The translations under genes and the position numbers were made by a program. A DNA stretch of 38,730 bases, taken from Hydrogenophilus sp. (GTDB lineage: Bacteria; Pseudomonadota; Gammaproteobacteria; Burkholderiales; Thiobacillaceae). Positions 21,913 to 26,743 of the stretch are shown piece by piece. The first letter of the stretch is position 1. Each line of letters starts with the position of its first letter. The DNA is taken from positions 1-38,730 of the forward strand of contig JAIMKU010000014.1 in the NCBI GenBank assembly GCA_020692235.1, in the 5' to 3' direction. The notes under the pieces are model-generated. The model was not told where the DNA came from and did no database searches. It saw nothing but the letters and a program-made list of their open reading frames with translations.

Positions 21913-21935
21913 ACAAAATCGAGGTGAGGTATATT

Positions 21936-22178
21936 ATGCAAACCGTCAACATCCATGAAGCCAAGACACAGTTCTCCCGTTTTGTTGATCGAGCGGAGGC
22001 AGGCGAGGAGATCGTGATTGCCCGCGCAGGTAAGCCAGTCGCGCGTTTGGTGGCATTGGAAAGTGCATCACTTAAGCCGCGCAAGTTGGGCTTGGGTAAA
22101 AAGCAATTTTCCTTTCCTGAGAAATTCGATGACTTGAGTGCTGGCGACATTGCCGATATGTTCGAGCACGGCAAATAA
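21936..22178 (+). CDS. Phd/YefM-type (VapB-like) antitoxin
   Basis: This is the antitoxin of a type II pair. It is 80 residues long with the Phd/YefM signature MQTVNIHEAKTQFSRFVDRAEAGEEIVIARAGKPVARLVAL in the DNA-binding N-terminal half. A variable charged C-terminus (KKQFSFPEKFDDLSAGDIADMFEHGK) would wrap the toxin. The start is ATG 21936, because GAGGTGAGG lies 6 nt upstream; the track start (GTG 21924) lies within that ribosome-binding region. The stop directly abuts the toxin ATG. Palindromes upstream suggest autoregulation. Confidence 0.9.
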   Translation: MQTVNIHEAKTQFSRFVDRAEAGEEIVIARAGKPVARLVALESASLKPRKLGLGKKQFSFPEKFDDLSAGDIADMFEHGK

Positions 22179-22586
22179 ATGGCCGAACATGTTTATCTGC
22201 TGGACACCAATGTGCTGCTCGCGGCATTGCTTGCTCCGGAACGTTTGCCGCCGGAGGTGGTTGCCGGTTTAACGGATGCGTCAAATACCGTGTATTTCAG
22301 TGCAGCCAGCACCTGGGAAGTGGCCATCAAGCGCTCGCTGCATCGTGCTGATTTTGATTTCTCGCCTGAGGATATTCATCGGCTGGCACTGGACACAGGC
22401 TTTACCGAGTTGCAGGTGAAGGGAGAGGATTGCTACCCGCTGGTGAACCTGCCTTGGCATCACCGAGATCCATTTGATCGTTTGCTGATCGCACAGGCGC
22501 AATCCTTGCCCGCTTACCTGCTGACGACAGATAGCGTGTTGAGTCAATACACTGAATTAGTTATTCGCCTGACCTTGGAACCTTAA
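22179..22586 (+). CDS. PIN-domain ribonuclease toxin (VapC family)
   Basis: This is the toxin partner of the upstream antitoxin, a 135-residue PIN-domain Mg-dependent RNase. The acidic active-site residues lie in LLDTNVLLAAL (N-terminal Asp), SAASTWEVAIK (Glu), HHRDPFDRLLIAQA (Asp) and LLTTDSVLSQY (Asp), so the site looks complete. The ATG follows the antitoxin stop with no gap, indicating coupled translation. The RNA target cannot be predicted. Confidence 0.9.
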   Translation: MAEHVYLLDTNVLLAALLAPERLPPEVVAGLTDASNTVYFSAASTWEVAIKRSLHRADFDFSPEDIHRLALDTGFTELQVKGEDCYPLVNLPWHHRDPFDRLLIAQAQSLPAYLLTTDSVLSQYTELVIRLTLEP

Positions 22587-23082: not shown

Positions 23083-24228
23083 ATGAACGAAGATGCTGGT
23101 TTTTTTCGCAAACTACCCAGCGCCCTACCGGGTCTGGCCCTGATCGTTTTGACCATGGTGGTGATACGTAACTGGATCGAGCCATGGATGTCAACCGCAG
23201 TCGTATTCGGAATGAAGGGTTGGCTGGTCAAGGCCACGCACCTTAATTACATTCTGCTGGGCATCATCTTGGGAATGCTCTACCGCAATGTGATTTTCGG
23301 TGGAAAAATGCCCGCTGTCCTGAGCGACGGATTCAAGCTCTCCCGTCTCATGATCAAGACCGGTATTATTTTGCTGGGCTCGCTCTACACGGTTAACGCC
23401 ATCGTGCAGCTCGGCTCCATGGCGATCATCCTGATAGGCGGTTTCGTGATCCTGACCATCATCATGGTGTTGTGGTTCGGCACCATGCTGGGGCTTGACC
23501 GCTCCATGATCGGCGTCATGGCGAACGCGCTGAGCATCTGCGGCGTCAGCGCCGCTGTGGCCACTTCGCCGGCCGTTGAAGCCAAGGCATCGCATGTGGC
23601 CTACGCCATTGCCACCATTCTGGGCTTCGGCGTCCTGACCATGTTCATCAGCCCCTTCATCGGCCACGCATTGGATCTCACCGACTTGCAGTATGGCGCC
23701 TGGATCGGCACCGGCATTCTCAATTCCGGTCAGGTATTGGCGGCAGCGCTGGCGTTCAATCCCAACATAGCGCCGGGCACGGCGGCGTCGGTGGCGGAAG
23801 TCTGGAACATCATGCGCGTGATCTCTATCCCCTTCGCCGTGTTCGCTGTCACCGTCTGGTATTGGGCCGGCAAAACAGAATTGGGAGAAGGTGGCAAACG
23901 CAAAGGGCTGGGTACCTTGCTGGTCGAGAAATTTCCGGTGTTCGTGCTCGGCTTTTTAGGCATGGTGTTCCTTACCAGCATGGGCACGTTTGGTGATGTG
24001 GGCCTCAAAGGCGGTCCCGCAGCCTCCGATACCGTCAAAATGATGCGTCTGTGGATGACCTGGATCTTCGGCTTCGGCTTGGTCGGACTCGGTGGCTATA
24101 TTGATTTCAAGGAACTCCGCCAAGCCGGCGGCGCGCCGCTCAAGCTTGGCCTGATTGTGGGTGTCACCAAATATGTACTGGCATTGGTGGTGGTATTCCT
24201 GATCAAAGATTACTTGGTTGCAATTTAG
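23083..24228 (+). CDS. YeiH/UPF0324 family putative sulfate exporter
   Basis: This is a 381-residue polytopic inner-membrane protein with about ten hydrophobic segments. The family signature GVMANALSICGVSAAVATSPAVEAK (ICGxSA motif) is present, as are GTGILNSGQVLAAALAF and WIFGFGLVGLGGYIDFKELRQAG. The family is annotated as putative sulfate exporters, but transport substrates are mostly untested. A GAGGAGA Shine-Dalgarno lies just before ATG 23083. It is first in a three-gene plus-strand set with a single-pass microprotein and a Usp-domain protein, 27 bp and 14 bp apart. Confidence 0.85.
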   Translation: MNEDAGFFRKLPSALPGLALIVLTMVVIRNWIEPWMSTAVVFGMKGWLVKATHLNYILLGIILGMLYRNVIFGGKMPAVLSDGFKLSRLMIKTGIILLGSLYTVNAIVQLGSMAIILIGGFVILTIIMVLWFGTMLGLDRSMIGVMANALSICGVSAAVATSPAVEAKASHVAYAIATILGFGVLTMFISPFIGHALDLTDLQYGAWIGTGILNSGQVLAAALAFNPNIAPGTAASVAEVWNIMRVISIPFAVFAVTVWYWAGKTELGEGGKRKGLGTLLVEKFPVFVLGFLGMVFLTSMGTFGDVGLKGGPAASDTVKMMRLWMTWIFGFGLVGLGGYIDFKELRQAGGAPLKLGLIVGVTKYVLALVVVFLIKDYLVAI

Positions 24229-24255
24229 TAAAATCAACTGCTAGGAGAATGAATC

Positions 24256-24498
24256 ATGGCTAAAACAGGTAGCGAAACCATTGGCGCCACAGGCGATAAA
24301 GGCAAAATGACTTTGTTCAAGGATGACCGCGCAGAGGACATCGGCGCGATTATCATGGCCGTACTCGTCGTTGCCGCAATCATGGTCTTGACCATGAATA
24401 AACCGGCCGCCCAACCGGCAGCACCCGCTGCTCCTGCGGCAACCGCTGTCGCTCCGGTCATAGCGCCGATGGCGCCCGTTGAACCGGTAAAGAAATAA
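24256..24498 (+). CDS. 80-residue single-pass membrane microprotein
   Basis: I do not recognise the family. The N-terminal 30 residues are polar (MAKTGSETIGATGDKGKMTLFKDDRAED). One membrane segment follows (IGAIIMAVLVVAAIMVLTM, about residues 31-49). The tail is Ala/Pro-rich (NKPAAQPAAPAAPAATAV) and ends PVKK. AGGAGA lies 8 nt before the ATG, so the start is well supported. Sitting 27 bp after the transporter gene and 14 bp before the Usp gene, it may be a small accessory subunit of the transporter (inference). Confidence 0.75.
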   Translation: MAKTGSETIGATGDKGKMTLFKDDRAEDIGAIIMAVLVVAAIMVLTMNKPAAQPAAPAAPAATAVAPVIAPMAPVEPVKK

Positions 24499-24512
24499 GA
24501 ATCGGCGGCTTC

Positions 24513-24962
24513 GTGGGATTTAAAAACGTTGTTGTTGCGGTAGATGGTTCTGAAGCCTCGCAAGAGGCGTTGAACTGTGCCATAGAGTTGGCCCGTCAGA
24601 GCAAATGCGCCCTGACGGGCCTTTTTATTATCGACGGCGGCTGGCCCGATTATATTGGTAACGATTGGCAATCATCCAAAGGCGCGCGTCAAGGCTTTCT
24701 CGATTACATCCGCAAGGAGCAGGAAGAGCAGGCGGACGCGGCGCGTAAGCAATTCGAAGTAGCCAGCGCAGGGATGGCAACGGCATTCTCGCTGCTGAGT
24801 GGCGATCCAACCGAAGAGTTGCTCAAAATTGCCAATGCAGCAAGCACCGACATCTTTGTCATCAGCCGTCGGGTCTTCCAGGTAAGCGGACGGCCCAGCC
24901 TAAAATCCCTCGCCAAGACCCTGGCGCTAAAAGCCACGCGCCCCCTGTTGCTTCTTCCCTGA
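24513..24962 (+). CDS. universal stress protein (UspA domain)
   Basis: This is a 149-residue single UspA-fold protein starting at GTG 24513. The N-terminal strand and loop NVVVAVDGSEASQEALNCAIELARQSKCALTGLFIID and the late FVISRRVF and ATRPLLLLP strands are typical. The ATP-binding Gly-x2-Gly-x9-Gly-Ser motif is degenerate (SGRPSLKSLAKTLALK), so it may not bind ATP like UspFG. There is no clear Shine-Dalgarno; translation may be coupled to the microprotein gene 14 bp upstream. A terminator-like hairpin lies inside the gene. Confidence 0.88.
   Translation: MGFKNVVVAVDGSEASQEALNCAIELARQSKCALTGLFIIDGGWPDYIGNDWQSSKGARQGFLDYIRKEQEEQADAARKQFEVASAGMATAFSLLSGDPTEELLKIANAASTDIFVISRRVFQVSGRPSLKSLAKTLALKATRPLLLLP
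24590..24630 (+). terminator. intragenic terminator-like hairpin within the Usp gene
   Basis: GGCCCGTCAG (24590-24599) pairs perfectly with CTGACGGGCC (24612-24621) around a 12-nt loop. TTTTTATTA follows immediately on the sense strand. It has all parts of a Rho-independent terminator, yet lies about 80 bp inside the Usp coding sequence. Whether it ends transcripts of the transporter and microprotein genes is untested. Confidence 0.6.
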
Positions 24963-25129: not shown

Positions 25130-25450
25130 ATGAGCCAACTACTATTTAACACCCCGAACGAACTTCAGCACCTTCTGGGTGAGCGGATAAGGCGGCTACG
25201 CCTGAACCGCAACCTGGATCAGCGCACCACGGCGGAAAAAGCCGGTATCTCCGAGAAGTCCTTGCGTAATCTCGAGTCCGGGCGGGGTTCGACGGTAGAA
25301 ACCCTATTGCGCACACTAAAAGCACTCGAATATCTGCAAGGAATCGATATGCTGGCCCCGGAAACCAGTGTTAATCCGCTTGACTTGCTACGCCAGTCCA
25401 AGGCGCCGCAACGTGCGCGGCGAGTGAACAAACAGGCACGGGAAGACTGA
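25130..25450 (+). CDS. hipB: HipB-like XRE-family antitoxin
   Basis: This 106-residue protein has a Cro/C1-type helix-turn-helix (LGERIRRLRLNRNLDQRTTAEKAGISEKSLRNLESGRGSTVETLLRTLKAL, about residues 16-66). A basic C-terminal tail follows (KAPQRARRVNKQARED). As a HipB homologue it would repress the operon and neutralise the HipA kinase. The ATG has no upstream Shine-Dalgarno. The gap to hipA is 3 bp. Confidence 0.9.
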   Translation: MSQLLFNTPNELQHLLGERIRRLRLNRNLDQRTTAEKAGISEKSLRNLESGRGSTVETLLRTLKALEYLQGIDMLAPETSVNPLDLLRQSKAPQRARRVNKQARED

Positions 25451-25453
25451 TAC

Positions 25454-26743
25454 ATGGATACCCCGGTCATCGAGGTTCGCATCTGGGGGCAACGCATCGG
25501 TGCAGTGGCACCCGATCCGCGTCTTGGCTGTTATGTGTTCGCCTACGAGCCCGCCTGGCGGCGCACCGGTATCGAGTTGGCGCCATTGACCATGCCGCTG
25601 GATGACCCTCGGCAGAACTTTGCCTTTCCCGAGCTTGCCGAGCCGAGCTATAAACGTTTACCCGGGCTCCTCGCCGATGCCTTGCCGGATGATTTTGGCA
25701 ATGCCCTGATCGATGCCTGGATGAGCGCCAAGGGCGTCGAGAAACGCGCCATCACCACACTCGACCGCCTCGCCTACATGGGCAAACGTGGCATGGGCGC
25801 GCTGGAGTTCAAACCTGCGCGCGGTGCCCATCGAGAAAGTGCCGAACCCCTCGAAATGAAAAACCTGGTGGAGGCGGCGCGCAAGGTCGTCCATGGCGAC
25901 TTGTCCGGCGATGTTCATGCCCAGGCCGCGTTGGCCAACATCATCCGGGTCGGCACCTCGGCCGGCGGCGCGCGTGCCAAGGCAGTCGTCGCCTGGAATC
26001 CGCAAACCGAACAGATACGCAGCGGCCAGTTCGACGCCGCGCCTGGGTTCGAGCATTGGCTACTCAAGTTCGATGGCGTCGGCAAGGACGCGGAACTGGG
26101 TGGCAGCGCTAATTACGGCCGTATCGAATACGCCTATCACTTGATGGCCGAAGCCGCCGGCATCCACATGTCGCCATGCCGGCTGCTGGAAGAAAACGGC
26201 CGTGCTCACTTCATGACTCGCCGCTTCGACCGCGATGTCATCGAAGGCCAGACCATCAAGCACCACGTCCAGACGCTCTGTACCATGAGCCACCTCGACT
26301 ACAAGCAGCGAGGCACTCATGCCTATACCCAGCTATTCATGGCGATCGCCCAACTCAAGCTGGGCGACGAAGCTATCGGCCAGGTCTTCCGCCGCATGGC
26401 CTTCAACGTCATGACCAAGAACTGCGACGATCACAGCAAGAACTTCGCCTTCCGCCTGAAGCAAGGGGGTAATTGGCAACTGGCCCCGGCCTATGACGTG
26501 ACTCACGCTTACAACCCCAAGGGCGAGTGGACCTATCAGCACCTGATGAGCGTGAATGGCAAATTCAGCGGCATCAGCCGCGCCGATCTGCTGGTCGAAG
26601 CCGACCGCTTCGGCGTCCGCCGACCGCTGGATGTATTCGCCGACGTCAATAATGCCTTGGATAACTGGTCAAAGTTCGGCCGCGAGGCCGGCTTGGACCA
26701 GAAAACCATTGCCGAGAAACGTGCCGACTTTGAACTGATATGA
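25454..26743 (+). CDS. hipA: HipA-family serine/threonine kinase toxin
   Basis: HipA kinases phosphorylate translation factors (GltX in E. coli) and cause growth arrest or persistence. The 429-residue product has the HipA N-terminal barrel (VRIWGQRIGAVAPDPRLGCYVFAYEP). It also has the Gly-rich phosphate loop GTSAGGARAKAVVAW and the catalytic/metal segment NVMTKNCDDHSKNFAFRL, followed by APAYDVTHAYN. The active site looks complete. It is the second toxin-antitoxin system in 5 kb. No clear plus-strand terminator follows; the hairpin at 26810 points the other way. Confidence 0.93.
   Translation: MDTPVIEVRIWGQRIGAVAPDPRLGCYVFAYEPAWRRTGIELAPLTMPLDDPRQNFAFPELAEPSYKRLPGLLADALPDDFGNALIDAWMSAKGVEKRAITTLDRLAYMGKRGMGALEFKPARGAHRESAEPLEMKNLVEAARKVVHGDLSGDVHAQAALANIIRVGTSAGGARAKAVVAWNPQTEQIRSGQFDAAPGFEHWLLKFDGVGKDAELGGSANYGRIEYAYHLMAEAAGIHMSPCRLLEENGRAHFMTRRFDRDVIEGQTIKHHVQTLCTMSHLDYKQRGTHAYTQLFMAIAQLKLGDEAIGQVFRRMAFNVMTKNCDDHSKNFAFRLKQGGNWQLAPAYDVTHAYNPKGEWTYQHLMSVNGKFSGISRADLLVEADRFGVRRPLDVFADVNNALDNWSKFGREAGLDQKTIAEKRADFELI

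Follow-up and report, generated by a model that had tools for sequence, protein, structure and literature searches.

Three consecutive genes in the window, the whole 38,730-nucleotide stretch of Hydrogenophilus sp. DNA analysed here, form a real, conserved, operon-like set. They encode a transporter of the Putative Sulfate Exporter (PSE) family (PF03601, TCDB 2.A.98), a single-pass membrane microprotein and a Usp-fold protein (Table 1). The set, hereafter the module, is apparently undescribed so far. What was observed is a fixed gene order with small gaps, the strict co-occurrence and co-divergence of the three proteins, their invariant motifs, the Usp fold and a near-nesting in genomes that carry dsrA. 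As an explanation of these observations, we give an even chance to a model in which the three genes make up one operon for a transport complex of carrier, microprotein and Usp protein that would export sulfite or sulfate from the oxidative Dsr pathway.

Table 1 Features of the three-gene module. Positions are those of the window except where a locus is named.
Feature	Position	Strand	Basis
PSE/PF03601 transporter, separate subfamily, 381 aa	23083..24228	+	PF03601 164.4 bits; close and distant module relatives
Signature segment GTGILNSGQV of the subfamily, residues 209-218	23707..23736	+	44/44 modules; comparison with 18 further PF03601 proteins
Single-pass microprotein, 80 aa; core of ~48 aa and lineage-specific Ala/Pro tail	24256..24498	+	All 44 homologues lie between the transporter and Usp genes
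Invariant motif F-x2-DR-x-ED-x2-A, residues 21-31, predicted to lie on the cytoplasmic side of the membrane	24316..24348	+	44/44; side from charge bias
Single membrane helix of the microprotein, ~residues 29-47	24340..24396	+	Hydropathy peak in 44/44
Usp-fold protein, 149 aa, GTG start, lacking the nucleotide motif	24513..24962	+	PF00582; model; Foldseek
Conserved loop W44-W52 (WPDYIGNDW)	24642..24668	+	W44, D51 and W52 in 44/44
Type B rhodanese upstream of the transporter	L043:8199-8762; L045:7654-8247; L100:1748-2278; L103:10581-11039 (-); L104:3591-4085 (-)

The tight spacing and common strand noted in the original prediction were confirmed, with gaps of 27 bp and 14 bp between the open reading frames. 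Order and strand were identical in 44/44 distinct complete modules from Proteobacteria, a count of loci with all three genes present and duplicates removed, from which one module truncated where its contig stops (L010) and one copy lacking the Usp gene (L086) were left out. The recurrence in other genomes, on which the original prediction had staked the set, is thus strong. Close relatives of the window transporter (72–94% identity) occurred in Sulfuricella, Sideroxydans, Gallionellaceae, other Nitrosomonadales, a Hydrogenophilales MAG and a MAG named Thiodictyon, and wherever the contig extended far enough the next two genes encoded the microprotein and then the Usp protein. A profile of the microprotein gave significant matches in 20 of 369 genomes of the class, with two copies in G508; every match adjoined a module transporter, and a module Usp gene was likewise adjacent in each case except the second G508 copy. 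A 21st match was weak (G493, E 8.6e-4), had neither gene beside it and was set aside. The transporter profile gave nine strong matches in 399 genomes of the phylum, 9/9 with both partners, and at 18 other PF03601 loci neither a microprotein nor a Usp partner was found at E < 1. The constancy of order and strand, the position of the microprotein matches beside the transporter and the purifying selection on the microprotein (dN/dS against the window 0.08–0.29) argue that the set is more than a chance arrangement. No paper describing a transporter-microprotein-Usp set was found in the literature searched, in keeping with the original expectation of a new module.

Promoter and terminator scans gave nothing beyond the level in shuffled sequences, and a search of a plasmid collection returned no match. 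Two toxin-antitoxin-like pairs border the window module, a Phd/YefM antitoxin with a PIN protein upstream (21924-22586) and an HTH protein with HipA downstream (25130-26743). These flanks could mark a genomic island, and the module is absent from four genomes of the window's family that have dsrA.

The transporter matched PF03601 over residues 49-355 well above the Pfam gathering threshold of 24.5 bits. It scored 77.3 bits against the YeiH subfamily model TIGR00698, the cut-off of which (232.6 bits) was reached by none of the module transporters. In an alignment that included 18 further PF03601 proteins, the signature segment read GTGILN[ST][GA]QV in 44/44 module transporters, GST[IV]HEVAQV in most YeiH proteins, where on our reading of the alignment it may define the subfamily, and GTSEFADAAG in a second PF03601 group. 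The signature of this second group at loci L025, L026, L029, L030, L032 and L038 was GTSEFADAAGFAAA, distinct from those of YeiH and of the module transporter. The designation "YeiH-type" given to the transporter originally was therefore right as to PF03601 membership but does not extend to YeiH proper; judged by score and signature loop, the module transporter is a separate PF03601/PSE subfamily, for which the name YeiH is too narrow. It is the sole PF03601 gene in the window's genome and the only PF03601-type match in nearly all module genomes, and YeiH proper was almost missing, with 2/80 tested dsrA or module genomes above its cut-off. An AlphaFold model of the transporter, computed with 12 close homologues, had a pLDDT of 42 and was set aside. 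A published modelling study assigns PF03601 to the CPA/AT superfamily and gives it a reentrant-helix-reentrant fold (PMC8396727).

The microprotein family comprised 44 members of 39–81 aa with one helix each. Of the two features first ascribed to it, the membrane helix was recovered throughout, whereas the Ala/Pro-rich tail, present in 6/44 members, is not a core feature; among the four closest relatives the tail changed faster than the core. Residues F21, D24, R25, E27, D28 and A31 were invariant. Positive charges averaged 4.5 before the helix vs 0.9 after it, a bias by which the N-terminus with its motif is probably inside. No known small-protein family in Pfam or NCBIfam matched above cut-off. 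The best Pfam match, DUF4330 (E 0.12, 13 bits vs a cut-off of 27.6), was rejected, as was an OadG-like subunit, a candidate drawn from the tail, owing to the tail's rarity. The microprotein is a real family of its own, defined by the invariant charged motif ahead of the helix. KdpF of KdpFABC and AcrZ of AcrB are small single-pass transporter subunits, and the microprotein resembles them in being very short, in having one helix and in being encoded beside the gene of a large carrier; it differs from them in its invariant charged motif before the helix and in matching no Pfam or NCBIfam entry above cut-off.

The third protein belongs to the Usp family (PF00582, 50.8 bits vs a cut-off of 24), and its predicted structure is a good model (pLDDT 87.3). 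Foldseek ranked UspA (3s3t; E 2.7e-8, TM 0.71) first and TeaD of Halomonas elongata (3hgm) second. The degenerate ATP site reported from the sequence was correct yet understated: the ATP-binding motif G-2x-G-9x-G-[ST] is missing from 44/44 module Usps and not merely degenerate. After the second strand lies a loop with the pattern W...G[ND]DW, found in 43/44 members. TeaD offers a comparison for the proposal that a soluble Usp regulator and a membrane microprotein accompany the transporter, with which the anatomy of the module agrees. TeaABC is a TRAP transporter, not a PSE protein. As in that system, a Usp-fold protein is encoded with a transporter, here in a gene order kept on one strand in all complete modules, which would imply co-transcription; unlike TeaD, the module Usp has no nucleotide motif, and a separate microprotein family lies between transporter and Usp. 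A further precedent for coupling between a Usp protein and a transporter is Rv2623-Rv1747 (PMC5549992).

A second, more distant branch of modules, which we call type B, had transporters of ~41–43% identity. These were longer (~480–600 aa), being extended at the N-terminus, and the members that were aligned also had an insert before the last helices. The microprotein was shorter, the Usp gene was present, and there was usually a fourth gene, following the Usp gene in 20 loci (e.g. L093:10357-10974, L085:5757-6398, L097:9606-10232), for a protein of ~200 aa that has a hydrophobic stretch at its C-terminus. An SRPBCC-like assignment of this protein was dropped, as a Pfam search gave no match. Pairwise distances of the three module proteins were correlated, with r of 0.92–0.94 overall, 0.60–0.84 within type A and 0.52–0.63 within type B; this co-divergence is supportive and undecisive, since a common species history contributes to it.

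These data bear on whether the transporter acts alone, with the microprotein and the Usp protein as a separate stress pair, or as a factor for carrier assembly or stability, merely sharing its operon. We regard this as decidedly unlikely. Usp proteins are frequently general stress proteins, the type B Usp gene starts up to 149 bp away from the microprotein gene, and one module copy, the second in G508 (L086, 7898-9626), has transporter and microprotein without a Usp gene. On the other side, microprotein and transporter are never apart in the 44 modules, the Usp is missing from a single duplicate only, and the Usp loop is specific, with its two tryptophans and its aspartate invariant. In G508 the copy without a Usp gene is followed by a large, different membrane-protein-like open reading frame.

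What the genomes add to the first reading is chiefly a sulfur-oxidation context, unseen from the sequence alone. In a comparison of 76 genomes, in which dsrA fragments at contig ends were counted as present, dsrA occurred in 33/36 module genomes vs 13/40 others (Fisher p 7e-8) and soxB in 28/36 vs 18/40 (p 0.003). In samples unmatched for phylogeny, as was this comparison, dsrA was present in 11/12 module genomes of the order, where 40 of 200 sampled genomes had dsrA (p 6e-8), and in 17/20 of the class, where 119 of 369 did (p 8e-7). One further genome of the class, G515, had a dsrA fragment only. Genes for aprA were present above cut-off or as a fragment in all module genomes except G015, G170 and G467, and the window's genome carries dsrA, soxB, aprA and RuBisCO. 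The module is thus nearly nested in dsrA genomes, and its link with dsrA is tighter than that with soxB or RuBisCO. Both copies of dsrA in G014 (C13:145026-146365 and C59:90313-91624), unlike those of most other genomes, align to the family as two segments separated by an identical gap, at profile positions 127-160.

A role of the module in autotrophy, for example in the transport of inorganic carbon or organic acids, in place of sulfur metabolism was also weighed, given that RuBisCO large-chain genes were enriched in the same 76 genomes (31/36 module genomes vs ~17/40 others, p 8e-5). dsrA is, however, the stronger correlate; the five module genomes without RuBisCO (G618, G630, G664, G725, G729) have aprA in 5/5 and dsrA in 4/5, and six genomes with RuBisCO and without dsrA (G220, G252, G266, G370, G460, G474) also lack the module. 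We therefore hold such a role to be very improbable.

The relation between module and dsrA is one-way: most dsrA genomes have no module (29/40 in the sample of the order), and four of the window's family are among them. This predominance of dsrA genomes without the module counts against a Dsr-linked exporter, as do the position of the module in the window's genome, where it is not adjacent to dsr genes, and the complete genome G015 (L046), which carries a type B module and no dsrA, aprA or soxB above cut-off. Among the matches listed, the flanking genes varied by lineage, which suggests that the module is free-standing.

The Dsr-linked exporter nevertheless remains our preferred model, in the following form. 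The three genes would be co-transcribed as one operon and their products would assemble into a physical transport complex, with a PSE-type protein as the carrier. The microprotein would be a small single-pass subunit with its N-terminus inside and its FxxDRxED motif at the cytoplasmic face of the membrane, and the nucleotide-motif-free Usp protein would serve as a cytoplasmic regulatory or assembly subunit, docking at the FxxDRxED site through its W...GNDW loop. The carrier would most likely expel sulfite or sulfate that the oxidative Dsr pathway forms in the cytoplasm, and this export may keep sulfite under toxic levels. The suggested subunit roles rest on the strict linkage and the invariant motifs, with TeaD and Rv2623 as precedents; sulfite or sulfate export appears the most likely job of the transporter in view of the characterised PSE members and the link with dsrA.

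Among these members, yeiH is the gene on which sulfite resistance of Salmonella mainly depends in vitro (PMC12880088), and the YeiH gene of Hyphomicrobium denitrificans is induced 526-fold by thiosulfate, with sulfite expulsion as its proposed function (PMC11582611, PMC12423496). SuyZ of Paracoccus is a proposed sulfate exporter, for which the Hyphomicrobium authors favour sulfite. The module transporter shares with YeiH and SuyZ the Pfam family, the general membrane-protein architecture and sulfur-linked hosts; it differs from them in lying far under the TIGR00698 cut-off, in its signature loop and in its constant company of microprotein and Usp protein. No YeiE-type LysR gene was found beside the window module. 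Because the signature loop differs from that of YeiH, the substrate may differ as well.

The same three-part complex might instead import or exchange other sulfur species (sulfonate, thiosulfate or sulfane sulfur), or exchange sulfate for another anion, and so feed the Dsr pathway. The genomic link is with dsrA overall and with no specific efflux step, the signature loop is unlike those of both other PF03601 groups, and the transporter gene of five type B loci is directly preceded by one for a periplasmic-type rhodanese, which has an N-terminus resembling a signal peptide and a CNxxxCW loop and which counts in favour of the exporter model as well. Against this reading, which we consider unlikely, every PSE member for which data exist either acts in sulfite resistance or has a proposed export function, and no binding protein or import component was linked to the module among the matches listed. 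Returning to the Dsr-linked exporter, a more detailed version would have it as a novel type of three-subunit carrier within the CPA/AT superfamily, in which a PSE transporter, an obligate microprotein and a nucleotide-independent Usp gate, coupled to the carrier via the microprotein, would form the sulfite or sulfate exit of many Dsr oxidisers. We put this version forward tentatively, with somewhat less than even confidence.

For the exit of cytoplasmic sulfite or sulfate from sulfur oxidisers of the Dsr type, the module offers a concrete, testable exporter candidate across several proteobacterial lineages. The undescribed microprotein family and the Usp variant can be used as markers, and the module is a clean case for learning how Usp proteins serve transporters. 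In two Sideroxydans MAGs among the matches listed, a SLAC1/TDT transporter gene and a LysR gene lie a few kb downstream of the module (L009:8802-10822 and L012:5006-7056, both on the minus strand); the SLAC1/TDT family includes Ssu1, the yeast sulfite pump.
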